Shown: piece after piece, positions 24,025-35,597 of the stretch | Position numbering within the stretch: position 1 is the first letter of the stretch | Layout: each line of letters opens with the position of its first letter | Assembly: GCA_003696975.1 (NCBI GenBank) | Contig: RFGT01000084.1 | Span: forward strand, 1 to 44,505 | Direction of reading: 5' to 3' | Origin: Nitrospirota bacterium | GTDB taxonomy: Bacteria > Nitrospirota > Nitrospiria > Nitrospirales > UBA8639 | Length of the DNA stretch: 44,505 bases | The notes under the pieces: generated by a model | What the model was told of the DNA's origin: nothing | Seen by the model: the letters and a program-made list of their open reading frames with translations, nothing else | Databases searched by the model: none | Position numbers and translations under genes: made by a program

Positions 24025-24125
24025 TCCTCACATTCCCTACAGGAGAATGAGTGACATCAATGTGACAACAACCCGAGTGTGTGTTCTAAAGGCTTACTTT
24101 CCTCAGTAGAATCTGGCAGGGAAGC

Positions 24126-24650
24126 ATGTACCTCGCTGTGATGTTTTTTTTCACGATTCTCGGTATCTCGCTCATGGCCATTGGGCAACAGTGGTCCGTG
24201 ATCACCAAGCGAGATCGCGAGGCCGAGTTGGCGTTTCGGGGTTTTCGGATCCAAGAAGCCATTGCACGTTATGCGGCGGATTATGAAGTCTTCAAGGCCT
24301 CACGAGCGACTCGCTATCCACTGACACTCGAAGCGTTGACGAAAAAACCGAGGCGGTATTTACCCGTAGTCTATAAGGATCCTATCACTGGAGAAGACTT
24401 TGAACTCATCACCGTTGGCAAGGAAATCCGCGGTGTACGGAGTCGGAGTTTGGAAAAACCGCTAGACCGGGTGACTTTCAAGGGAGCGCCAACCTATCAT
24501 GCCTTCAAATTTGAGGCTTCTGATCGTACGCCGTGCAGGATGAGTGCCCTCAATTCTCCCATGTTTACTCCCTGTCCTCCCACTTCCATTCAGCGTAGCC
24601 CACAGAGTACCAAAAATTCCAAAGCCTCCAACAAAGAGGGACCTGCTTAA
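24126..24650 (+). CDS. Pseudopilin-like protein lacking a standard leader
   Basis: A 174-residue protein that starts directly with a hydrophobic helix (MYLAVMFFFTILGISLMAIG). A charged stretch (KRDREAELAFRG) and a globular part with YPLTLEALT, RYLPVVYKDPITGEDFELI and GVRSRS follow. This is the layout of a pseudopilin family seen in type II secretion and MSHA-like clusters, where the helix follows a short RGFTYLA leader. Here no ATG, GTG or TTG exists between the upstream stop (24087-24089) and 24126. The codons just before the ATG read IWQGS, so either an unusual start codon restores a leader or the protein is not processed. The tail is polar and disordered. It is the first gene of the secretion/pilus-like cluster. 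Confidence 0.65.
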   Translation: MYLAVMFFFTILGISLMAIGQQWSVITKRDREAELAFRGFRIQEAIARYAADYEVFKASRATRYPLTLEALTKKPRRYLPVVYKDPITGEDFELITVGKEIRGVRSRSLEKPLDRVTFKGAPTYHAFKFEASDRTPCRMSALNSPMFTPCPPTSIQRSPQSTKNSKASNKEGPA

Positions 24651-24706
24651 AGAACCCCCAACAAAGGCCTTAACCACCAGGGCTTCCTAACCGATAAACA
24701 CGGTAA

Positions 24707-24724
24707 CCCCTCGCTCGCGAGGGG
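24707..24724. repeat. GC-rich inverted repeat before the secretin gene
   Basis: CCCCTCG and CGAGGGG form a seven-base stem around CTCG, 84 bases before the secretin start codon. No T-run follows on either strand. It could attenuate or insulate the secretin message, or be an operator. Confidence 0.5.
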
Positions 24725-24807
24725 ATAACATGGTGTCACAAAGCCAATCTTTTTCCCTTTCCTGACGCTACCACAAATTCCATGCCAGGAAGTTCATTGA
24801 AGAAACA

Positions 24808-27165
24808 ATGAGAACCCTCAGAATTCACCTTCTTATAGGAATGCTTGCGGTTATCTCATGTACCGCGGCGAATCCGGACCTGCGCCTTGCAGAAGAACTC
24901 GCACAGCAGAAAAATTGGGACGCGGCCGTTACAGCCTATCGAGACGCACTCCGCCGAGACCCCTTCAACCGAACTCTTCAAAAGGCTCTGTCCCATGCCA
25001 AGCGCCAGGCGGCTCGCGAACATTACCAGCAAGGGCGCCAATTGCTCAAAAAAAAGCGGCTGACTGAAGCGGTCAATGAGTTCCAACTTGCTCTTGGGCT
25101 TGACCCGGCGGCCCCAGAACATCATGCGGCATTAGGGGAAGCCATCCGTTTGAAGAAGGCCCGTCGTGCCCTTCATGATGCCCAGAAACTTCAGGCGCTT
25201 GGGCGTCTAGACGAAGCCATGGCCGCCTATGAACGAGCCCTGGAGCTCGATCCCCATCTCACTCAAGCTTTAGAGGGTATTACGGCCATTGCCCAAGCTC
25301 AGCAGGAGCAAAGCGCATTAGGCGGGACTTCTGAACCAGTTACCTTGCGATTTCAAAATGCACGTCTGAAACAGGTCTTTGAAATTCTGGCGCGCACCGC
25401 TCACATCAACATCATTTTCGAAAAAGACGTACGGGATGATCTTATTACGATTTTCACCAAGGATACGCCTTTTGAGGAAGCTCTCAATCTGATTTTAGCC
25501 ACCAATCATTTGTTTGCCAAACGGGTCAGGCCCGATACTTTATTGATTATTCCCGACACCAAACAGAAACGACAACAGTATGAAGATCTTATGATTCGAA
25601 CATTTTATCTTTCGAATGCCAAAGCCAAAGATATGGCGAACTTACTCCGAACCGTGCTGGAGACTAAGCGTGTGTATGTGAACGAGCCCTTGAACGCCGT
25701 CGTGGTTCGTGATTTTCCGGCTAAGCTGCAATTGGCTGAGCACATTCTGCTCGCAAATGACCGCCGTGATGCCGAAGTGGAGTTCAAAGTTGAAGTGCTG
25801 GAAGTCAACCGCAACAAAACTCAGCGGCTAGGCGCCACCTTTGCCAAGCAACTTGGGGCCGGCATCTTTCCTCCCAATACCACTACATTCAGCACAACGG
25901 GCCAGGTGTTTACCTATCGCCAGTTGACGGATCTTGGCCCGAATTCTTATTTGTTTACCTTTCCCTCTAGCGTGCTCCTCGAGTTTTTCAAGACGGAATC
26001 TGATGCCAAAACCCTGGCTTCTCCCAAACTTCGGGTTCTCAACAACCAAAAGGCTTCCATCAATATCGGAGATAAACAGCCGATTCTTCTCTCCACGACG
26101 AATGTCTTGCCGGGCCAGGCCGCTACGGGCGCGGTACCGACAACCTCGACAGTCACGTCCATTGAGTTCAAGGATACTGGAATCAAGCTGAGTGTCGAAC
26201 CCATTATTCATTTAACAGGAGAAATTACGATCAAGCTCAAAATTGAAGTGACACGTCTAGGCGACTTGGTGACACTTCAAGACCAACCGAAAATCACGCA
26301 ATTTCGGTTTGGCACCAGAATGGCAGAGACCACGTTGAATCTTCGAGATGGAGAAACCGTGATCTTAGCAGGGTTACTCCAAGAGGAAGATCGAAAAACC
26401 CGAGATTCGGTGCCGGGGTTGGATGATGTTCCTGTTTTGAAAGATCTTTTCTTCACAAAAAAAGAGAAGGTTACCACCGAGGTCATTTTGGCGATCACTC
26501 CACGATTGATTCGGAACGTCATCCCTCCCAGTCTTGTGAAGCAAACGCTGTGGTCTGGGACCGCAAACCAGTATGCGACGCGTCCTTTGTTTGCTTCTCC
26601 TGCACCGACGCCGCTCCCTGCACAACCTGAGACCCTACTGCTGCCACAGAATGCGCCTTTGGCGGAAGAACCTGTAGCGGAAGCAAAAGAAGGCGTACAC
26701 GATCAAACAGCGACTGCCCATAAACCAGCACCGGCTTCGGCAAAACACGCACGGATTAGTCTTATCCCCTCTGAAGTCAGCACACGAACAGGGGAACGCG
26801 TGCAGATTCGCCTCCACGCCCACGCGCTTCCTGGGGTTCAAACTCTTCGTCTCCGGATCACTTATGACCCGCAGATTGTGGAATTTCATGAAGCCTTCCC
26901 GGGCACGTTCTTCCCTCAGAGTGACCCGGATAAAAGCTTAAGGGTTTCGGCTGCTCCAGAATCAGGCACAATTGTGTTAGAAATTGGAGGAACCGGAGAA
27001 ATTGCCCAAGGCGACGGTACACTTGCCACCTTAGAATTTACCGCCAAGGATCGAGGGACATCGGTCATGCGCCTACATACCCCCACCTTGCAGGTGGCCA
27101 AACCCGATGCAGGAGCGAACTCCTTTGCTGTGACGGTCCAACATGGGAAAATTCGAGTTCTCTAA
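24808..27165 (+). CDS. Secretin with N-terminal TPR and C-terminal cohesin-like domain
   Basis: A 785-residue outer-membrane secretin of unusual build. A lipoprotein signal ends at VISC (C18). Residues about 24-170 are TPR repeats, e.g. RLDEAMAAYERALELDP. A short STN-type domain (about 178-250) starts VTLRFQNARLKQVFEIL, and a NolW-like domain (about 262-325) follows with RTFYLSNAKAKDMANLL. The secretin core runs to about 575 with DAKTLASPKLRVLNNQKA, GETVILAGLLQEEDRKT and VPGLDDVPVLKDLF. After a proline/alanine linker, residues about 645-785 look like a cohesin domain (GVQTLRLRITYDPQIVEF). It should form the outer-membrane gate of the machine encoded downstream. The last 23 bases overlap the next pseudopilin gene. 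Confidence 0.9.
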   Translation: MRTLRIHLLIGMLAVISCTAANPDLRLAEELAQQKNWDAAVTAYRDALRRDPFNRTLQKALSHAKRQAAREHYQQGRQLLKKKRLTEAVNEFQLALGLDPAAPEHHAALGEAIRLKKARRALHDAQKLQALGRLDEAMAAYERALELDPHLTQALEGITAIAQAQQEQSALGGTSEPVTLRFQNARLKQVFEILARTAHINIIFEKDVRDDLITIFTKDTPFEEALNLILATNHLFAKRVRPDTLLIIPDTKQKRQQYEDLMIRTFYLSNAKAKDMANLLRTVLETKRVYVNEPLNAVVVRDFPAKLQLAEHILLANDRRDAEVEFKVEVLEVNRNKTQRLGATFAKQLGAGIFPPNTTTFSTTGQVFTYRQLTDLGPNSYLFTFPSSVLLEFFKTESDAKTLASPKLRVLNNQKASINIGDKQPILLSTTNVLPGQAATGAVPTTSTVTSIEFKDTGIKLSVEPIIHLTGEITIKLKIEVTRLGDLVTLQDQPKITQFRFGTRMAETTLNLRDGETVILAGLLQEEDRKTRDSVPGLDDVPVLKDLFFTKKEKVTTEVILAITPRLIRNVIPPSLVKQTLWSGTANQYATRPLFASPAPTPLPAQPETLLLPQNAPLAEEPVAEAKEGVHDQTATAHKPAPASAKHARISLIPSEVSTRTGERVQIRLHAHALPGVQTLRLRITYDPQIVEFHEAFPGTFFPQSDPDKSLRVSAAPESGTIVLEIGGTGEIAQGDGTLATLEFTAKDRGTSVMRLHTPTLQVAKPDAGANSFAVTVQHGKIRVL

Positions 27166-27685
27166 ACGACAGCTATTCGACAAGCAGGGCATCACGCTTC
27201 TCGAAATATTGATCACGCTTGCTCTGTTGCTCATTCTGGCCTCTGTTGCCCTTCCGCTTTCAAAGTTGAGCGGAAAGCGGGCAAAGGAATTGGAGCTTCG
27301 GCAGACTCTGCGCATGATACGAACAGCAATCGACAATTTTCGGCGAGATTGGGCTCGTGATGGGAATACACTGTTGGGTCCACTCTGTGTCAAGAATCAG
27401 ACCGCATGCAAGGAACATACAGGAGTGACAGGCTATCCCAAATCGCTAGAGACTCTCCTAGGCATTGAATTGACGGGAGCAGAGGCCGCACTTCACGAAA
27501 AGCATCCCGTGCGGCGATACCTGAGGCGAATTCCGGTGGATCCTATGACCAACTCGACTGAGTGGGGACTACGGTGCTATCAGGATGAAGCTGATGTCGA
27601 TACGTGGTGCGGGGAGGATGTGTTCGATGTGTATACCAAAAGCCCTAAGACAGCAATTGATGGGACGAAATATCGCGAGTGGTAA
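27143..27685 (+). CDS. Type II/IV pseudopilin
   Basis: A 180-residue prepilin. The class III leader ends KQG before ITLLEILITLALLLILAS, giving cleavage after G16 and the glutamate at position +5 of the mature helix. The globular part has YPKSLETLL and RYLRRIPVDPMTNSTEWGL, the latter typical of GspG major pseudopilins, plus four cysteines (CVKNQTAC and two later) that could form disulfides. The insertion between helix and DPMT segment makes it longer than standard GspG. It overlaps the secretin gene by 23 bases and ends in TAATG shared with the next gene, so translation is coupled. A separate prepilin peptidase is needed and is not in this window. Confidence 0.88.
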   Translation: MGKFEFSKRQLFDKQGITLLEILITLALLLILASVALPLSKLSGKRAKELELRQTLRMIRTAIDNFRRDWARDGNTLLGPLCVKNQTACKEHTGVTGYPKSLETLLGIELTGAEAALHEKHPVRRYLRRIPVDPMTNSTEWGLRCYQDEADVDTWCGEDVFDVYTKSPKTAIDGTKYREW

Positions 27686-28089
27686 TGTGTAGCTGGCATC
27701 AACAAATCGATCAACGGCAAGGATACACGTTACTCGAACTCATGATCGTGGTGGCCATCGCGGGGATTCTCATCACACTTGCCGTGCCATCATTTCAGCG
27801 CGCTGCCGTGAAAGCTAGAGAGGCTGCTCTCAAACAAAATTTGTTTACGTTACGGTCGGTCATTGATCAGTATTATGCAGACACTGGCGAATATCCCAAA
27901 AGCTTAGAATCCCTTGTAAAAGCTGGATATCTACGGGCCATTCCGCTTGATCCGTTTACCAAATCCGCCGACACGTGGCAACTTATTTTCGAAGCAGAAC
28001 CTGAAGAGGGGGAAATTCCCGGCATTTTCGATGTCCATAGCGGAAGCGATCTCATTGCCTTGAACGGAACACCATATAATGAGTGGTGA
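27685..28089 (+). CDS. GspG-like major pseudopilin
   Basis: A 134-residue pseudopilin. The leader ends QRQG before YTLLELMIVVAIAGILITLA, with the conserved glutamate at +5 and cleavage after G13. The body has ADTGEYPKSLESL and LRAIPLDPFTKSADTWQL, the GspG signature with its calcium-loop region, and ends YNEW. The ATG overlaps the stop of the preceding gene by one base (TAATG). A GTG at 27679 also opens the frame but is less likely. GspG proteins polymerise into the periplasmic pseudopilus that pushes substrates through the secretin. With the longer sister gene before it, one may be the major and the other a minor subunit. Confidence 0.92.
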   Translation: MCSWHQQIDQRQGYTLLELMIVVAIAGILITLAVPSFQRAAVKAREAALKQNLFTLRSVIDQYYADTGEYPKSLESLVKAGYLRAIPLDPFTKSADTWQLIFEAEPEEGEIPGIFDVHSGSDLIALNGTPYNEW

Positions 28090-28888
28090 TCGGATAAGTC
28101 AACGTTCTCCTTCCTGCTTCACACAGTTCCTTGGAAGGACACGGGGAAAGAGATGGGGATGGGCTTTCTGTCTCCTGCTTGGCGGGTGTGCTCAATCCGT
28201 TCCGCCCCCTTCTGTCGTGCCGCCTTCTCCACCGCCTCAGGCACATATGACTTTGGTTCGGGAGGCTAAAGCCGAAGCGCAAGAGCTGCGATCTGCCTTG
28301 GCCGCTCAACGAATCCAAGCGGCCAAACAAGCCGCTGAACTTCATGCGGCGCGGCAACAAGCCGCGGCCCTCCGTGAGCGAGAAGCGGAATATCTCCAAC
28401 GCATCGCAAGTTTGGAAGCTGACCTGGCCTCGCTCAAAGCCGAGCGCGAGCAATTACACCAAACCGCGAAAGAGCTCGAGCTGAAGGTGAAAAACCTCCC
28501 AGCCCTTTTGCAAGTGATCCAAGAGCTCAGGACGATCCAGGCCACCGTCCAGGACCTGATGACATCTCTCAAAACAGTGACGACCGATTTGGCTGACATC
28601 AAGCAGACGATTCGCACGAACCAGACCGCTCTCCTCCGGTTGACTGGATCCTCTTCCGCTGATTTGAAATCTCCCCCCCTACCTCCCGCCTCTGGCCAGA
28701 CAATCACCGTTCGTCCCGGGGATTCCCTTTGGCGCCTTGCTAGGGCACATGGAACCACGGTTGCCATACTCAAACAATTGAATGGGTTGTCAGGTGATCA
28801 AATTATCGTCGGGCAGATATTGAAACTCCCTGGGCGCTCCAAGAGTGTCTTGGGACCATCCAAGACTTCGTTGTCCGCAACTCCTTGA
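28079..28888 (+). CDS. Lipoprotein with coiled coil and LysM domain
   Basis: A 269-residue predicted lipoprotein. A basic N-terminus and hydrophobic core end at LLLGGC (C37), then a proline-rich linker. Residues about 58-190 are a long alanine/glutamine-rich coiled coil (AAKQAAELHAARQQAAAL). Residues about 207-252 are a LysM peptidoglycan-binding domain (TVRPGDSLWRLARAHGTT, QIIVGQILKLPG). It probably anchors the machine to peptidoglycan, a role played by other LysM proteins in pilus systems such as FimV, though it is not FimV. The ATG overlaps the preceding gene by 11 bases and the next gene begins seven bases after its stop, so it is an integral operon member. Confidence 0.85.
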   Translation: MSGDRISQRSPSCFTQFLGRTRGKRWGWAFCLLLGGCAQSVPPPSVVPPSPPPQAHMTLVREAKAEAQELRSALAAQRIQAAKQAAELHAARQQAAALREREAEYLQRIASLEADLASLKAEREQLHQTAKELELKVKNLPALLQVIQELRTIQATVQDLMTSLKTVTTDLADIKQTIRTNQTALLRLTGSSSADLKSPPLPPASGQTITVRPGDSLWRLARAHGTTVAILKQLNGLSGDQIIVGQILKLPGRSKSVLGPSKTSLSATP

Positions 28889-28895
28889 GTGTGAT

Positions 28896-30104
28896 ATGGC
28901 CCGCTTTCGCTATCGTGCAGCACGCCAGGATGGTACCATCATCGAAGCCTCCGCCACAGGACCTAGTGAAATGGCCGTCCGGTCGCAACTAGAAACAGAT
29001 GGATTGCTGATTCTCGAGTTGAAAGGAGAATCATCCTGGAATGTAAACTGGCATTTCATACCACAACGAAAGCGGCTCTCACTTCGAGATTTTCTTGTTT
29101 TCAACCAGCAATTCTTGGCGTTGGTGAAATCAGGGTTGCCCATTCTGAAAACCTTCGACATTCTAACCGAGCGTGCTACCTATGGTCCCTTTCAACAGGC
29201 CTTATACCATGTTCGCGAAAAGATCCGCGGAGGCGCCGCTATTTCCCAAGCCATGGCCGCCGAACCACGCTTCTTTCCCGAGCTTTACCAGGCGTCGATT
29301 CAGGCCGGCGAACAAACCGGCAATTTGATCGAGGTTCTCCAGCGCTACATCGCCTATTTGAAATTGGTCATCAGTGTTCGAGAAAAGATTGTCAAAGCTC
29401 TGGCCTATCCGGCCTTTCTCATAGTAGTGGGGGCAGCAGTTGTGTCATTTCTCGTAATGTACGTCATCCCAACATTTGCCGAAGTGTACGAACAGAACCA
29501 AACCGCTCTTCCCCTGCCGACACAAATACTTCTCGACCTCCTTAACTCGGCGAATATGTGGGGACCGTTGGTTGGAGGGGGTCTGCTTGTTACCGGGGCC
29601 GGAGTCTATTGGTGGGCTAAAACTCCCGCAGGACAATTCTCTCTCCATGCCCTGCTGCTCAAGGCGCCGGTGGTTGGTACAGTCATCCAAAAAAGTCAGA
29701 TCATCAGATTGACGAGAACGCTTTCGACTATCCTTGCCGGAGGGATTCCACTGCTTTCCGCGTTAACGATCACCGCTCACGCTACGACCAACAAAGTGAT
29801 CGCGCAGGCACTTCTCCAGGTAACCGATCGAGTGCGAGACGGCGCGAGTTTAGCTACGTCGTTGAAAGAAGCTGCCTTCCTCCCACGGCTGGCTGTCGAA
29901 ATGATTGAAGTGGGCGAAACGACAGGCTCATTGGAAACCATGCTCCTTGAGGTTGCCGAATTCCATGAGGGTGAATTGGATCTGTTGCTTGGACAACTGA
30001 CCACATGGATCGAACCGGTACTTCTTTTGATCATGGGAGTCATTATTGGTGGGATTGTTATTATAATGTATCTCCCCATTTTTCAACTGGCAGGGACCGT
30101 GTGA
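28896..30104 (+). CDS. GspF/PilC-type inner-membrane platform protein
   Basis: A 402-residue protein with two GspF domains. The first has FNQQFLALVKSGLPILKTFDIL and RGGAAISQAMAAEP, and the second has TRTLSTILAGGIPLLSALTI, VEMIEVGETTGSLETML and the terminal membrane helix PVLLLIMGVIIGGIVIIMYLPIF. The N-terminal about 60 residues hold the usual small beta segment RYRAARQDGTIIEA. This protein forms the inner-membrane platform that couples the ATPase to pseudopilus growth. The ATG at 28896 is preferred to the frame opening at 28845, which lies inside the lipoprotein gene. GspE follows after 27 bases. Confidence 0.93.
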   Translation: MARFRYRAARQDGTIIEASATGPSEMAVRSQLETDGLLILELKGESSWNVNWHFIPQRKRLSLRDFLVFNQQFLALVKSGLPILKTFDILTERATYGPFQQALYHVREKIRGGAAISQAMAAEPRFFPELYQASIQAGEQTGNLIEVLQRYIAYLKLVISVREKIVKALAYPAFLIVVGAAVVSFLVMYVIPTFAEVYEQNQTALPLPTQILLDLLNSANMWGPLVGGGLLVTGAGVYWWAKTPAGQFSLHALLLKAPVVGTVIQKSQIIRLTRTLSTILAGGIPLLSALTITAHATTNKVIAQALLQVTDRVRDGASLATSLKEAAFLPRLAVEMIEVGETTGSLETMLLEVAEFHEGELDLLLGQLTTWIEPVLLLIMGVIIGGIVIIMYLPIFQLAGTV

Positions 30105-30131
30105 ACATCCTGACAGAAAGGAGTCACACCT

Positions 30132-31865
30132 ATGGCGTCACCCGTCAAACAGGCTTCACTTGAAGATATTCTGCTCCAAAGAGGCGATCTTTCGCCGGAA
30201 CAACTGCGGGACTACACTCAACGCGCTGTGGCCACCCAACGCTCGCTCAAGACACTCCTGCTAGAGGAAGGTCTTCTTCCAGAAGAGACGATCGCCCGCG
30301 CGCTCGCAGAGCAGTTCGCCCTTCCTTATGATCCGCTTCATGATTTCCGCATCAATCCGGAGTTTTTTGCCACGATTCCCCTGGAGTGGATGCACCGCCA
30401 CCCATTTATCCCCCTTGCCGATCACAGTGGAGTACTCACGATCGCCGTCGCTGATCCGCAGGATCTGAGGGCTATCGATGAGTTGGAAGTCCTTCTCGGC
30501 CGTGAAGTGCAACTCGTAGTCTCCACGCGAACGGCCATTCACAACAGTCTCATGGCCAGCGAAGGTAACCAGCAGGTGTTGACCCGTATTCAAGAAGAAT
30601 TGCATCCCGTGCTCGTGAAAGAGGACGAGAAGGGCGAGGAAGTGCTCTCGGTTGAGAGCATTACCCGCGATCAGAGCCCTGTGGTCAAATTGGTAGATAC
30701 TATCATTTTGACCGCATTGCAGAGGCATGCTAGTGACATCCATATCGAAGTCACAGATCGGGACGTGGAGGTGAAATTTCGCATCGATGGAGTGCTGTAC
30801 CGAGCCATGGAACCCTTGTCTCGCTCCGTACATGCTTCTCTGATTTCCCGATTAAAGATCATGTCAGAGCTGGATATTTCTGAACGGCGCATCCCACAGG
30901 ACGGGCGTTTCAAATTGCATGTCGAAAAACGGACTGTGGATTTTCGAGTCTCCATCTTGCCAAGTGTCTATGGAGAATCAGTTGTTATTCGTGTCCTGGA
31001 CAAACACGCCATCGCCTCGGGCATCGGAGGACTGCGCCTTGATGTCCTTGGATACAACCCGGAAGATCTTCAGCGCTTCCGGAGAGCAATTACACGTCCC
31101 TATGGGATGATCTTGGTCACTGGGCCAACGGGAAGCGGAAAGACCACGACGCTGTACGGAGCGTTGAATGAAGTCCATACTCCTGAGGACAAGATTATTA
31201 CTATCGAAGATCCCGTCGAATACCAACTTGATGGAATCGTGCAAATTCCCGTGAACGAAAAAAAAGGGCTCACCTTTGCACGCGGGCTTCGCTCTATTCT
31301 GCGGCATGATCCTGACAAGATCATGGTAGGGGAAATCCGGGATGCGGAAACCGCACAAATCGCCATTCAATCCGCCTTGACCGGTCACCTAGTGTTTACC
31401 ACTGTCCACGCCAATAATGCCTTTGATGTCATTACACGGTTCGTCAATATGGGAATCGAACGATACAATTTCGTCACCTCGTTAAGCTGTATTCTTGCAC
31501 AGCGACTCGTCCGTGCGATTTGCCCATCTTGTAAAGTCCCTGTTTCTGTTACTCCGGAACTCTGTCGAGATTCAGGATTGGACTATGAACGAGCCAAACA
31601 TCTCACGTTTTACGAGGGCAAAGGGTGCCCTGAATGTCATGGATTAGGATATCGAGGAAGGCGAGCAATCACCGAGTTTCTCGACATGACGGACTCGATC
31701 AAAGAAATGATTCTGGCTGGACGACCTTCTTCGGAAATCCGAAATGCGGCATTCTCTCAAGGCATGACAACTCTGCGACAGAATGCACTTCAAAAGGTCT
31801 TACGCGGAGAAACCACGTTACGCGAAATCAATCGGGTCACTCCTGTAGAGGAACAGGTCCTTTAA
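30132..31865 (+). CDS. GspE/PilB-type assembly ATPase
   Basis: A 577-residue type II secretion/type IV pilus ATPase. Residues about 5-150 are a MshEN-type N-terminal domain (EEGLLPEETIARALAEQF), which binds c-di-GMP in some pilus ATPases. The Walker A motif GPTGSGKTTT is at 331-340, then the Asp box IITIEDPVEYQLDGI, the Walker B region DKIMVGEIRDAETA and the His box TVHANNAFDVITRF. A four-cysteine zinc module (CPSC, then CPEC) is present, as in extension ATPases. It powers pseudopilus assembly from the cytoplasm. AAGGAG sits eight bases before the ATG. The EAL-HDOD protein 22 kb upstream is a possible but unproven c-di-GMP link. Confidence 0.95.
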   Translation: MASPVKQASLEDILLQRGDLSPEQLRDYTQRAVATQRSLKTLLLEEGLLPEETIARALAEQFALPYDPLHDFRINPEFFATIPLEWMHRHPFIPLADHSGVLTIAVADPQDLRAIDELEVLLGREVQLVVSTRTAIHNSLMASEGNQQVLTRIQEELHPVLVKEDEKGEEVLSVESITRDQSPVVKLVDTIILTALQRHASDIHIEVTDRDVEVKFRIDGVLYRAMEPLSRSVHASLISRLKIMSELDISERRIPQDGRFKLHVEKRTVDFRVSILPSVYGESVVIRVLDKHAIASGIGGLRLDVLGYNPEDLQRFRRAITRPYGMILVTGPTGSGKTTTLYGALNEVHTPEDKIITIEDPVEYQLDGIVQIPVNEKKGLTFARGLRSILRHDPDKIMVGEIRDAETAQIAIQSALTGHLVFTTVHANNAFDVITRFVNMGIERYNFVTSLSCILAQRLVRAICPSCKVPVSVTPELCRDSGLDYERAKHLTFYEGKGCPECHGLGYRGRRAITEFLDMTDSIKEMILAGRPSSEIRNAAFSQGMTTLRQNALQKVLRGETTLREINRVTPVEEQVL

Positions 31866-31869
31866 CACC

Positions 31870-32976
31870 ATGTTGCCCTTCAGTCGCCCACGTTACGGCC
31901 TTTCCATCACGGCGAATACCCTTTGCTGGGTGGAAGTGAGCTCTGGAATACGAAAAAGCGGAATTCACCGGATCGAAGAGCATCCCCTCCCATCTGGCCT
32001 TATCCACCCTTCTCCGCTTGCACCAAATGTCGCAAAAGTCGATGAATTGGCGAAAATTTTCAAGACTTCCTTGCCACAGCGAAAGCACCCGTGCTCCATT
32101 GCAGTAAGCCTTCCGGATCTGTGTGCTCGGACCCTAGTGTTCGAACTGGCCCAATTACCTGCTTCCTCTCGGGAACGAGATGCCCTGCTGCGATGGAAAT
32201 TCAAACAAGACTGCCATCTCCATGCCGATCAGATTCGGGTAACAAGTCAGCGGTACACGCCGAGTCGAGTTCCTGCACCTCACACTCACCAGGCTCACCA
32301 ACCCGTTCATCTCCTGGCTACAGCCCTTTCACATGCCGTGGTTGAACCGTATGAGCAAGCCTGTTTAGCGGCAGGACTGATTCCCATGACTGTAGGGATC
32401 GCCAGTTTCTTAGTGTTCGATTTCTGCCGGCCAGTCATGATCCAAGCCATGGCCACTCTCAAACAGGATCACACTCGCGGTTACCATCTGGTGTTTTTCT
32501 ATGTCGCCGACTGGGGATGCACGACGGTGATCATTCACGACAATGTTCCTGTCTTTGTTCGAATCAAACCCCTCCGACCCGTTCCCCTATCGTGTAGCTC
32601 TTCCACTGGTTCTCCGTCTCCAGCGATCTCGGCAAACTCCCTGGATCCTGAAGAGTCCAACAAGTACATTGCGAGGCTAACCAACGAATTGATCGCTACG
32701 TTGCAGTATTATTTTGAGCTCCATCAATCCCTCGACCAGTTCATCCATCCTCTTCCACTGTTTCTGGCGGGGAGTTTGGATCCCGCCACAATTTTTCCTC
32801 AGGTTAAGCAGCGAGTCGAAACTGCCTTTACGGATGAATCACGCAATGCTCCGAGGATCCAGGCTATCCCCTTGCAGGCTGGTCTTCCCTATCTTTCTGG
32901 TAAGATTGGAGCCGATCCCACATGTTGGACTGGCACCACCTTGGCGGCATTGGCTAGTACAAGGATCACCCCATGA
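31870..32976 (+). CDS. PilM/GspL-cytoplasmic-like protein
   Basis: A 368-residue protein with the actin-like layout of PilM and the cytoplasmic part of GspL. Recognisable pieces are YGLSITANTLCWVEVSSG at the start, AVSLPDLCARTLVFELAQLP (the strand pattern of PilM), ALLRWKFKQD, VHLLATALSHAVVEPYEQAC and the late TNELIATLQYYFELHQSLDQ. PilM links the ATPase side to PilN. The family assignment rests on this pattern and on the position just before a PilN-like gene. Nucleotide-binding loops are not sharp. The gene begins four bases after the gspE stop and its end overlaps the next start by four bases. Confidence 0.75.
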   Translation: MLPFSRPRYGLSITANTLCWVEVSSGIRKSGIHRIEEHPLPSGLIHPSPLAPNVAKVDELAKIFKTSLPQRKHPCSIAVSLPDLCARTLVFELAQLPASSRERDALLRWKFKQDCHLHADQIRVTSQRYTPSRVPAPHTHQAHQPVHLLATALSHAVVEPYEQACLAAGLIPMTVGIASFLVFDFCRPVMIQAMATLKQDHTRGYHLVFFYVADWGCTTVIIHDNVPVFVRIKPLRPVPLSCSSSTGSPSPAISANSLDPEESNKYIARLTNELIATLQYYFELHQSLDQFIHPLPLFLAGSLDPATIFPQVKQRVETAFTDESRNAPRIQAIPLQAGLPYLSGKIGADPTCWTGTTLAALASTRITP

Positions 32977-33557
32977 CCCTTCTTTCCTTGCATCCGCATT
33001 CTCTTGCTGCGCCAGGTCTTCTACTCTTGCGAATTGCCCAATGGGGGCTGATCGGCTTGAGTGCGGGTTTTCTTGGTGCTTCGTTTTGGATCTGGCAAGA
33101 AACTCGGCAACTTACTGAAGCAGTCCAGATCCAGCAAGAGGCTGTGACGCGCGCCGAGCACTTGCAGCAGCAATTTCTGGAACAGGCAAGAAAACAGGGA
33201 TTTGATCTGTCCGATACCCGTATTCAACAACTCGCTCAAGAAGTAAGCTTTGCCCAACAACTTTCAATGCGCCGGAGATTTTCTTGGACTCGGTTTCTCA
33301 GCGACTTGGAAGCCGCAGTACCTCCTCACGTTGCAATGGAATCTATTGTCTTGAATTTTCCGAAGACCTCGCTTGTTTTAAATGGAATGGCTCGAGAGTT
33401 ATCTGATCTTTCATCCTTTGTGGAACGGCTCGAACGCCATCCAGCTTTCAACCACGTGGTGGTATCGAGTCATAAGCTCAAACAGCCGAAAGAAAAACGT
33501 CAGGCAAAGAACCCAGTCGTCACGTTCAGTATGAAAGTGACCTACACTCCAAATTGA
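32973..33557 (+). CDS. PilN-like protein
   Basis: A 194-residue bitopic membrane protein. A short cytoplasmic N-terminus (MTLLSLHPH) is followed by one membrane helix (WGLIGLSAGFLGASFWIW), a coiled-coil stretch rich in glutamine, and a ferredoxin-like domain with WTRFLSDLEAAVPPHVAMESI, LVLNGMARELSDLSSFVERL and FNHVVVSSHK. This is the PilN/GspL C-terminal pattern. PilN binds PilM through its N-terminus and PilO through its periplasmic part. The usual INLLP motif is only loosely kept (LLSLHP). The start overlaps the PilM-like gene by four bases. Confidence 0.78.
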   Translation: MTLLSLHPHSLAAPGLLLLRIAQWGLIGLSAGFLGASFWIWQETRQLTEAVQIQQEAVTRAEHLQQQFLEQARKQGFDLSDTRIQQLAQEVSFAQQLSMRRRFSWTRFLSDLEAAVPPHVAMESIVLNFPKTSLVLNGMARELSDLSSFVERLERHPAFNHVVVSSHKLKQPKEKRQAKNPVVTFSMKVTYTPN

Positions 33558-33585
33558 CTGAAGCAGCGTGTCAACGAGGATCACG

Positions 33586-34158
33586 ATGGAACAGTCGGTT
33601 TCCCTGACACTTTCACCCACCGCACTCGCTGCCGTTCGATTTCTAAAACCCTTCATCTTTATGGCAATAGGAGCGATTGGGCTGTTCTGCACCTCCTATG
33701 TGGTCTTACTCAATCCGGTCCAGGAACGCTTTTCACGCCTTACAATCACTTACAAGACCGTTCGACAGCAGTATGTCAACCAGCAAGTCGCTCGACAGAC
33801 CCAAGAAACGTTGCAGGCTGTTTGGGCTCAACTTCCCCGCTCAACCCAGTTCACAGCTTTAGGGGTGACCATCGTGCAGTTAGCCCAGCGCAATCATGTT
33901 CAGATTCCGGGCATGCGTTATCGTCTCGAGCCAACGGCCGATGGGTTTACCACAAGGGGAACAATCGCGTTCCAAGCTTCTGGCGACTATGAAGCCATTC
34001 GGCGGTTCATTTTTGAACTGGAAACAAAAAACCCGTTCCTCTTTATTGAAAAACTTTCAGTAGAACGGACCAAGCGCCCGGGTTATGTTTCGTTTACCAT
34101 GCAAGTCAGCACATTCTTTCAACCGGGATCATCACCCAATCGAGCAAATTCCACATGA
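33586..34158 (+). CDS. PilO/GspM-like protein
   Basis: A 190-residue bitopic protein with one membrane helix (FIFMAIGAIGLFCTSYVVLL), a helical coiled segment and a ferredoxin-like domain (FQASGDYEAIRRFIFELETKNPFLFIEKLSVE), as in PilO and GspM. In PilO this partner pairs with PilN and controls pilus dynamics. A GTG at 33568 also opens the frame, but GAGG six bases before the ATG at 33586 supports the latter. It overlaps the next gene by four bases. The family call comes from fold pattern and position; sequence identity to named PilO proteins is not judged here. Confidence 0.75.
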   Translation: MEQSVSLTLSPTALAAVRFLKPFIFMAIGAIGLFCTSYVVLLNPVQERFSRLTITYKTVRQQYVNQQVARQTQETLQAVWAQLPRSTQFTALGVTIVQLAQRNHVQIPGMRYRLEPTADGFTTRGTIAFQASGDYEAIRRFIFELETKNPFLFIEKLSVERTKRPGYVSFTMQVSTFFQPGSSPNRANST

Positions 34159-34778
34159 CAACGCGGATAAAATGGCTCATCTGCGGGGGATTGTTTGTTC
34201 TCTGGGGGACGTTGTTGATGGAGCATTTTCTCGATCCCTATACCCCCATCCGAAGACCCTTACGGTATAAGACCGGACAAACTGCAAGTCAGGCGGTCCA
34301 GCCGCAGGACTTGCCGCAGGCGCCTACTATCCTTCACCACCCTCAATCCACCCCTGTGCGATTCCAGAAACCGCGTAACATCTTTGCTCCGTTGTTTGGA
34401 CGCCCTTCAGGTCCTCCACAACCACGTAATCGTACATCTCGGAAATCCTCAGTAATTCGAACTCAGAAGTCCTCTCCCGGAGGCCTCTCTTCCAGCGCTT
34501 CGAACTCCTCTGGCTCCTCACCGGCTCAGATTGCCATCGAACGGGCCCGCCGCCAATTGAAACAATTTCGCTTTTTGGGATACCTAACTCAGCATGGTAG
34601 TCAACAGGTCTTTCTTAGTAACGGGCAGGCTATTTATATCGTTAGACAAGGAGAGCTCGTCGAAGGCACTATCCAAGTTGACGCCATCCACCCTAAAACC
34701 GTCGTGCTCTCGACCTTTGTTCCAGAAACGGGGAAGCGGGTTCAGGCCACGCTTTCCTTAACCAAAGAGGCATCCTGA
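34155..34778 (+). CDS. GspC/PilP-like periplasmic connector
   Basis: A 207-residue protein with one N-terminal membrane helix (WLICGGLFVLWGTLLM), a long proline/serine-rich linker (about residues 40-125) and a C-terminal beta domain: FRFLGYLTQHGSQQVFLSNGQAIYIVRQGELVEG, then VVLSTFVPETGKRVQATLSL. This matches the homology-region domain shared by GspC and PilP, which contacts the secretin periplasmic domains. It is therefore the likely link between the inner-membrane PilMNO platform and the secretin. The gene overlaps the PilO-like gene by four bases. The secretin here has TPRs instead of classical N0-N2 domains, so the contact surface may differ. Confidence 0.78.
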   Translation: MTTRIKWLICGGLFVLWGTLLMEHFLDPYTPIRRPLRYKTGQTASQAVQPQDLPQAPTILHHPQSTPVRFQKPRNIFAPLFGRPSGPPQPRNRTSRKSSVIRTQKSSPGGLSSSASNSSGSSPAQIAIERARRQLKQFRFLGYLTQHGSQQVFLSNGQAIYIVRQGELVEGTIQVDAIHPKTVVLSTFVPETGKRVQATLSLTKEAS

Positions 34779-34817: not shown

Positions 34818-35597
34818 ATGTCCACTTTTATCACCTTGGTTCATTTCCAAGTTTCCAGTTTGGTCAAAAGGATGCCAATCGCTTGCGTGGCGTATGTGCT
34901 CTTGAGCAATAGCTTTATTGATTGGGGATGGAACTCGTTTGCCCGGGCAGCACTATATCGCTGTCATGAGACATCAGGAGCTGTCGTATTCACCGATAGT
35001 CCTGCTCAGCTTCACCAATGTACGAGGCTGACCCCCAGTCAGTTGAATGACTCGCCAAGTCCAGGGTCCCCTCAACAAGGCTCTTTTCCCGCAAGTTCTT
35101 ACAGTCCTTCCTCCCCTTCACAGGTTCCATTCCCACAAGGGAAGAATACACCTCGTGGCCCCGGTTCTCAGGACGCAGCTTCTCGTAACCCAACATCGGC
35201 TTTTTCAATTCCACTGACCAAAATTGGAGATTCGTTAATCGTCTCCGCTCGGTTGAATGAGACGCTAGATGTACAGTTAGTCGTCGATACCGGCGCGACG
35301 ATGACGGTCCTCTCACATGAGGTGGCAATGAAACTAGGATTGTTGGCGCATGCCAATACCAGCGTGAAGACCGTTCAGACAGCAGGGGGATCCATCCAGG
35401 TCCCTATGACAACCGTGGCAGAAGTACGTATCGGATCGGCAGTGGCACATAATGTCGATGTCGCCATCCATGATCTTCCCCAGGGGCCACGCGGGGTATC
35501 CGGACTTTTGGGCATGTCGTTCCTTCGACATTTTTTGGTAACGGTCGATTCCAATCGAGGAGTTTTGCATCTCCAGCCACATCGCGAGACAAAGTGA
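34818..35597 (+). CDS. Retropepsin-like aspartic protease with DUF4124-like N-terminus
   Basis: A 259-residue exported protein. A hydrophobic N-terminal segment (CVAYVLLSNSFIDWGW) is followed by a DUF4124-like stretch (LYRCHETSGAVVFTDSP), a serine/proline-rich linker and a retroviral-type aspartic protease domain (about 130-255). The domain has the active site VVDTGATMTVLS and the late GLLGMSFLRHFLVTVD. Such clan AA proteases are dimeric and periplasmic or membrane bound. It is the last gene of the secretion cluster, 39 bases after the GspC/PilP-like gene, and could process a substrate or subunit. No ribosome site precedes the ATG at 34818; the ATG at 34872 has AAAGG too close, so the start is uncertain. 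Confidence 0.85.
   Translation: MSTFITLVHFQVSSLVKRMPIACVAYVLLSNSFIDWGWNSFARAALYRCHETSGAVVFTDSPAQLHQCTRLTPSQLNDSPSPGSPQQGSFPASSYSPSSPSQVPFPQGKNTPRGPGSQDAASRNPTSAFSIPLTKIGDSLIVSARLNETLDVQLVVDTGATMTVLSHEVAMKLGLLAHANTSVKTVQTAGGSIQVPMTTVAEVRIGSAVAHNVDVAIHDLPQGPRGVSGLLGMSFLRHFLVTVDSNRGVLHLQPHRETK

Follow-up and report, generated by a model that had tools for sequence, protein, structure and literature searches.

A run of genes in a Nitrospirota genome (2.77 Mb, 273 contigs) combines parts of the type II secretion system (T2SS) with parts of the type IV pilus (T4P), and this raises the question of what the encoded machine does. The window, that is, the whole stretch of 44,505 nucleotides analysed here, is contig C168 of this genome. 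The initial annotation described eleven consecutive genes; all 11 open frames were confirmed in the window sequence, consecutive on the plus strand from 24126 to 34778, and their families were confirmed with Pfam and PDB profiles. The cluster is best filed as a T2SS-like secretion variant with a T4P scaffold, which occurs in several phyla and has partly been noticed before under other names. Its genes, and the gene that follows them, are as follows.

24126..24650, + strand: G1, pilin-like protein with the motif G^FTYL (family alignment)
24808..27165, + strand: D, lipoprotein secretin (Pfam: N-terminal TPR, Secretin_N/N0-like region, secretin core, C-terminal cohesin-like domain)
27143..27685, + strand: G2, pseudopilin with the prepilin motif G^ITLLE and a GspG-like C-terminal Y.EW (N_methyl 2.8e-5, GspG model 6e-7)
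27679..28089, + strand: G3, GspG-like pseudopilin with the motif G^YTLLE (GspG model 1.2e-12, under cut-off)
28079..28888, + strand: LysM lipoprotein with coiled coil (LysM 1.6e-15; lipobox LLLGGC)
28896..30104, + strand: F, inner-membrane platform protein of the GspF/PilC family (T2SSF 6e-54)
30132..31865, + strand: E, assembly ATPase with MshEN N-domain and C..C zinc-type motifs (T2SSE 1.5e-135, MshEN 9e-17)
31870..32976, + strand: M, PilM-like cytoplasmic actin-fold protein, 368 aa (PDB profile match PilM 3e-25)
32973..33557, + strand: N, PilN-like inner-membrane protein (PilN 5.2e-9)
33568..34158, + strand: O, PilO/GspM-like inner-membrane protein (T2SSM_b 7e-7, PilO 2.7e-5)
34155..34778, + strand: P, PilP-like connector, 207 aa, with N-terminal membrane helix and proline-rich linker (Neisseria PilP 3.8e-7; alignment)
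34818..35597, + strand: retropepsin-like aspartic protease with DUF4124-like N-terminal part (gag-asp_proteas 3e-20)

The start of F is probably 28896 rather than 28845. Several features had been missed before: the LysM lipoprotein, the TPR and cohesin-like domains of the secretin, and the conserved aspartic protease downstream. The LysM lipoprotein is found mainly in Nitrospirales-type loci, where its position is kept, and the LysM domain on a lipoprotein suggests a candidate peptidoglycan anchor. The aspartic-protease gene begins 40 bases 3' of P and also adjoins P in many other Nitrospirales-type loci (L041, L082, L083, L091, L094-L098, L101, L111, L118 and L128); it is a possible accessory or processing gene of the cluster. 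Promoter and terminator scans of the cluster gave no excess over shuffled sequence.

The nature of the inner-membrane scaffold depended on M and P, which on their own gave no Pfam match. When profiles built from their homologues were compared with solved structures, M matched PilM (3e-25) and not GspL, and P matched PilP (3.8e-7) and not GspC. The scaffold is therefore of the T4P kind: the complete PilM-N-O-P set that marks type IVa pili is present in the cluster, and the places that GspL and GspC hold in the T2SS are occupied by other proteins.

Three of the genes encode pilin-like proteins, and Pfam recognised N_methyl in the two short ones. G2 and G3 have GspG-like ends, and G3 was aligned with E. 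coli GspG. In motif scoring of homologues both mostly carried Glu5, and some of the rows scored without it are motif picks misplaced by the script. G2 is kept in the same cluster position across loci, and G3 is the candidate for the major pseudopilin. The G1 family has a prepilin-type glycine and a hydrophobic helix in the alignment, and its profile matches geopilin (1.5e-4), but Glu5 is absent in all 46 of the 46 homologues scored. The predicted model of G1 is confident over the first 130 residues, yet no significant fold match was found in the PDB. In the T2SS it is GspK, the pseudopilin at the tip, that lacks Glu5. Since G1 lacks Glu5 as GspK does, we propose by analogy that G1 may be the tip pseudopilin, and perhaps it partly replaces the minor pseudopilins that are absent here. 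As assembled, G1 of the window is without a prepilin leader: the first ATG falls at about residue +2 of the mature protein, and ahead of the conserved Gly there is an in-frame stop (positions 24087-24126). Real decay, an unusual start and an assembly error would look the same in this sequence. Proteobacterial members add an annotated GspG, and an extra GspG-like gene in variable places was seen in proteobacterial and FCPU426 loci (L114, L117, L119, L142, L155-L159 and L162).

Secretin D matched PF00263 (8e-35) together with the TPR, Secretin_N and C-terminal cohesin-like domains in Pfam. A lipobox, scored with a loose pattern, was found in 65 of 77 near-complete D homologues, and several of the other 12 look like start-site errors. 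Lipoprotein secretins and TPR pilotins are known in other systems. Because D is a lipoprotein with an N-terminal TPR region, this analogy suggests that D may carry its own pilotin function. The cohesin-like domain of D is the only cohesin domain in the genome. Dockerin was searched genome-wide and none was found, so a cohesin-dockerin tag on substrates is unlikely in this genome.

How far E, F and D differ from known systems was assessed by the profile search and the GspE/GspF phylogeny that the initial annotation had proposed. All three proteins scored below the cut-offs of the curated models: E reached 579.7 bits with PilB (cut-off 675.65) and 549.7 bits with GspE (cut-off 630), F reached 326.6 bits with GspF (cut-off 424), and D reached 140 bits with GspD (cut-off 351) and 130.9 bits with PilQ (cut-off 284.35). 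The trees included canonical T2SS, T4aP, MSHA and further T4P systems as references, along with the other systems of this genome, drawn from E. coli K-12 and plasmids among other sources. The 26 members formed one clade in the E tree (100/100), the F tree (99/98) and the secretin tree (97/95), and E, F and D all fell outside the canonical reference clades; with so small a set of references (10 T2SS rows, few T4P rows, a single MSHA row and no T4aP secretin), these trees show distinctness from the references and not a deep position. E, F and D of the members each share common descent, and sub-clades that recur across the three trees point to inheritance of the cluster as a unit. In the plasmid collection, the best E matches were mostly these operons (44-55% identity), and annotated canonical gspE genes scored lower (mostly 39-48%, over shorter stretches). 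Several records in that collection, NZ_AP026896.1 and NZ_CP077849.1 among them, are 3.6-4.9 Mb long and resemble mislabelled chromosomes.

The gene order is unlike that of any standard T2SS, T4P or MSHA locus, as had been claimed. Outside the Nitrospirales, the ten-gene class is ordered F-E-M-N-O-P-D-G2-G3-G1, which was found in Acidobacteriota, FCPU426, one gammaproteobacterial MAG, Burkholderiales and Rhodobacterales. The Nitrospirales order, (G1)-D-G2-G3-LysM-F-E-M-N-O-P-(G1), is a rotation of it, and the window cluster has all ten genes in this order up to rotation. The carriers include replicons from Paraburkholderia, Caballeronia, Eleftheria, Burkholderia ambifaria, Aquabacterium, Janthinobacterium, Cupriavidus metallidurans CH34 and Aliiroseovarius, in some of which M, N or P is too diverged for the profiles and a gene is present in its place. 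Thus, of the earlier idea of a distinct machine of the Nitrospirota, the distinctness stands, with separate clades for E, F and D, and the confinement to Nitrospirota does not, because the same cluster is found in several phyla.

Within the Nitrospirota, a secretin search of 148 genomes gave about 50 with scores over 240 bits and 2 partial matches; nearly all of the rest were below 100 bits and were remote secretins, so that the scores formed two humps. Other cluster genes adjoin the strong secretin matches. With about 50 carriers among the 148 genomes, the distribution of the cluster in the phylum is patchy. One locus with the window-type order (L059, in genome G108) has E, F and D that group with betaproteobacterial members (100/100 in three trees), which suggests that this whole cluster may have been laterally transferred. 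Another contig, bearing L111, is labelled Nitrospinota; its E is 81% identical to that of the window, and TenA-like, peroxiredoxin-like and hydrolase genes lie upstream in both, so it may be a Nitrospirota contig that was binned wrongly, or the result of a recent transfer. In Nitrospira and relatives there is also a paralogous operon, D-G3-LysM-E-M-N-O-P (L044, L086, L088, L090, L092, L100, L102, L103 and L113), where no F or G1, and in most cases no G2, was found. One clade (SH-aLRT 99) holds ten ATPases from this platform-less paralogue, and they have intact Walker motifs. Since genome G094 holds the platform-less L044 and the complete copy L045, the platform may be shared.

Whether parts that the locus lacks are encoded elsewhere bears on its origin. 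GspH, GspI and GspJ are absent from the locus, as is GspK, in agreement with the initial annotation; GspK (PF03934) had no match anywhere in the genome, and no GspF or GspG scored over the curated cut-off. On the grounds of these genome-wide searches for GspK, GspF and GspG, a hidden canonical T2SS that completes the set was rejected, and since neither canonical GspF nor GspK was found, no T2SS-like system other than the cluster is recognised in this genome. No prepilin peptidase lies in the locus, as noted earlier; the N-terminal family of prepilin peptidases has a single match in the genome, on another contig, C72. The genome also has PilB-PilT-PilC on contig C16, with PilT beside PilB, another locus with ATPase, platform and pilin genes on C256, and two Tad loci, all named from their frames. 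These absences from locus and genome would suit a decayed canonical T2SS that has lost GspC, H, I, J, K and L. However, one set of parts is kept across phyla in a clade of its own. By hand count, a canonical GspF over the cut-off accompanies the cluster in about 30 of the 50 Nitrospirota genomes that carry it and is missing from about 20; in about 21 genomes there is the canonical GspF and no cluster. Because many genomes carry both systems or only one of them, the cluster does not appear to be a remnant of the canonical system, and we regard decay as very unlikely.

The reading that we prefer is a reduced type II-like exporter with a T4P-type PilMNOP scaffold; judged from the sequences, secretion is its probable function. 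The ten-gene order in several phyla, the E, F and D clades, the GspG-like pseudopilins and the lack of PilT in the cluster argue for it. Inspection of a few loci, with no background count, pointed to these candidate exoproteins: a multicopper oxidase and a 2,528-aa Ig/cadherin-like protein beside L159, an M4 metallopeptidase 131 bp upstream of L158, RHS, TIG and FN3 proteins beside L155 and L156, and long exported-looking frames that follow L057 and L114. The window itself has no exoprotein neighbour of the kind seen at L155, L156, L158 and L159.

The missing leader of G1 as assembled and the lack of a significant fold match for its model speak against the exporter, and so does the scaffold, since one with PilM and PilP also suits a pilus. 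The cluster might then build a thin surface or adhesion pilus, T4P-like or MSHA-like, instead of secreting proteins; the MshEN domain of E and its PilB score, which slightly exceeds its GspE score, fit this, and the MSHA locus, like this one, has no peptidase (PMC6668835). On the other hand, the pilins resemble GspG, no retraction ATPase is encoded in the locus, the genome has the separate PilB-PilT-PilC locus, and MshE and MshG of Aeromonas, the single MSHA reference, fall outside the E and F clades. We therefore think a pilus rather unlikely. A machine for DNA uptake (competence) belongs to the same superfamily, and in PMC3543383 the pul genes of Geobacteraceae are said to be located near DNA-uptake genes; among the frames read next to the cluster of the window, no such gene was recognised, and exoenzyme genes are found beside the cluster at other loci, so that a role in competence seems barely credible.

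As an exporter, the cluster may work in the following way. Substrates would enter the periplasm by Sec or Tat. The ATPase E, coupled through PilM-N-O-P and the platform F, would drive G3 and G2, processed by the separate prepilin peptidase of the genome, into a short pseudopilus capped by G1 as its tip. The pseudopilus would push substrates through the lipoprotein secretin, which has its own pilotin-like TPR and a cohesin-like domain, and the LysM lipoprotein would tie the assembly to peptidoglycan. This leads to a prediction for the smallest working pseudopilus: two subunits with Glu5 and one without.

A further reading, possible though not the one we favour, is that the cluster represents a separate secretin-dependent type IV filament lineage between T4aP and T2SS, present in several phyla and dedicated to large exoproteins and multicopper oxidases. 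It would combine pseudopilin export on an intact PilMNOP scaffold with a minimal pseudopilus of three parts and a TPR-bearing lipoprotein secretin. If true, this lineage would preserve an intermediate of the transition from T4P to T2SS.

The cross-phylum definition of the class, the clade evidence, the assignment of PilM and PilP, the consistent absence of Glu5 from G1 and the platform-less Nitrospira paralogue appear to be new. They provide a testable definition for a recurrent unnamed class of exporters, whose E, F, D and GspG-like pseudopilins are missed by curated models.

Among named systems, the cluster shares GspE, GspF, a secretin and GspG-like pseudopilins with the canonical T2SS (Gsp) but differs in gene order, in the lack of recognised GspC, GspK and GspL and of GspH, I and J in the locus, and in having PilM and PilN for GspL and PilP for GspC. 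With the type IVa pilus (PilMNOPQ with PilB and PilC) it shares the PilM, N, O, P scaffold and a PilB-like ATPase, whereas it has no PilT, its pseudopilins are GspG-like, its secretin carries TPR and cohesin-like domains, and it forms its own clade. The likeness to the MSHA pilus lies in the MshEN domain of E and the lack of a peptidase in the locus; besides the position of Aeromonas MshE and MshG outside the clade, no MshM-type AAA ATPase was seen in the cluster.

One member of the class is already annotated as type II secretion. The second chromosome (CHR2) of C. metallidurans CH34 has a small cluster with gspD, gspEFG, two more gspG and four hypothetical genes (PMC2864759). This second gsp cluster, Rmet_4704-4713, corresponds to L159, matched to the published tags by gene content and replicon only. 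It has the same genes in the order F-E-(M)-N-O-P-D-G2-G3-G1, and its E, F and D lie inside the clade. It differs from the window cluster in the extra GspG, the lack of LysM and aspartic-protease genes, and the multicopper-oxidase neighbour.

The gene order of Geobacter Pul presumably resembles that of the class as well. The Pul system of Geobacteraceae is reported to be required to secrete the multicopper oxidase OmpB (Mehta 2006, cited in PMC3543383) and has two or three pseudopilins, PulG, OxpG and TklG (PMC3543383). As an "atypical type II secretion system", Pul/Oxp is set apart from the canonical Gsp that the same organisms carry (PMC3543383, PMC8557921); PulE is GSU1783 (PMC8557921). The number of pseudopilins and the multicopper-oxidase substrate, compared through papers and not through sequence, make Pul/Oxp a strong lead and a very probable further member of the class. 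This may link the Geobacter exporter of metal-active multicopper oxidases with the clusters of many environmental bacteria.
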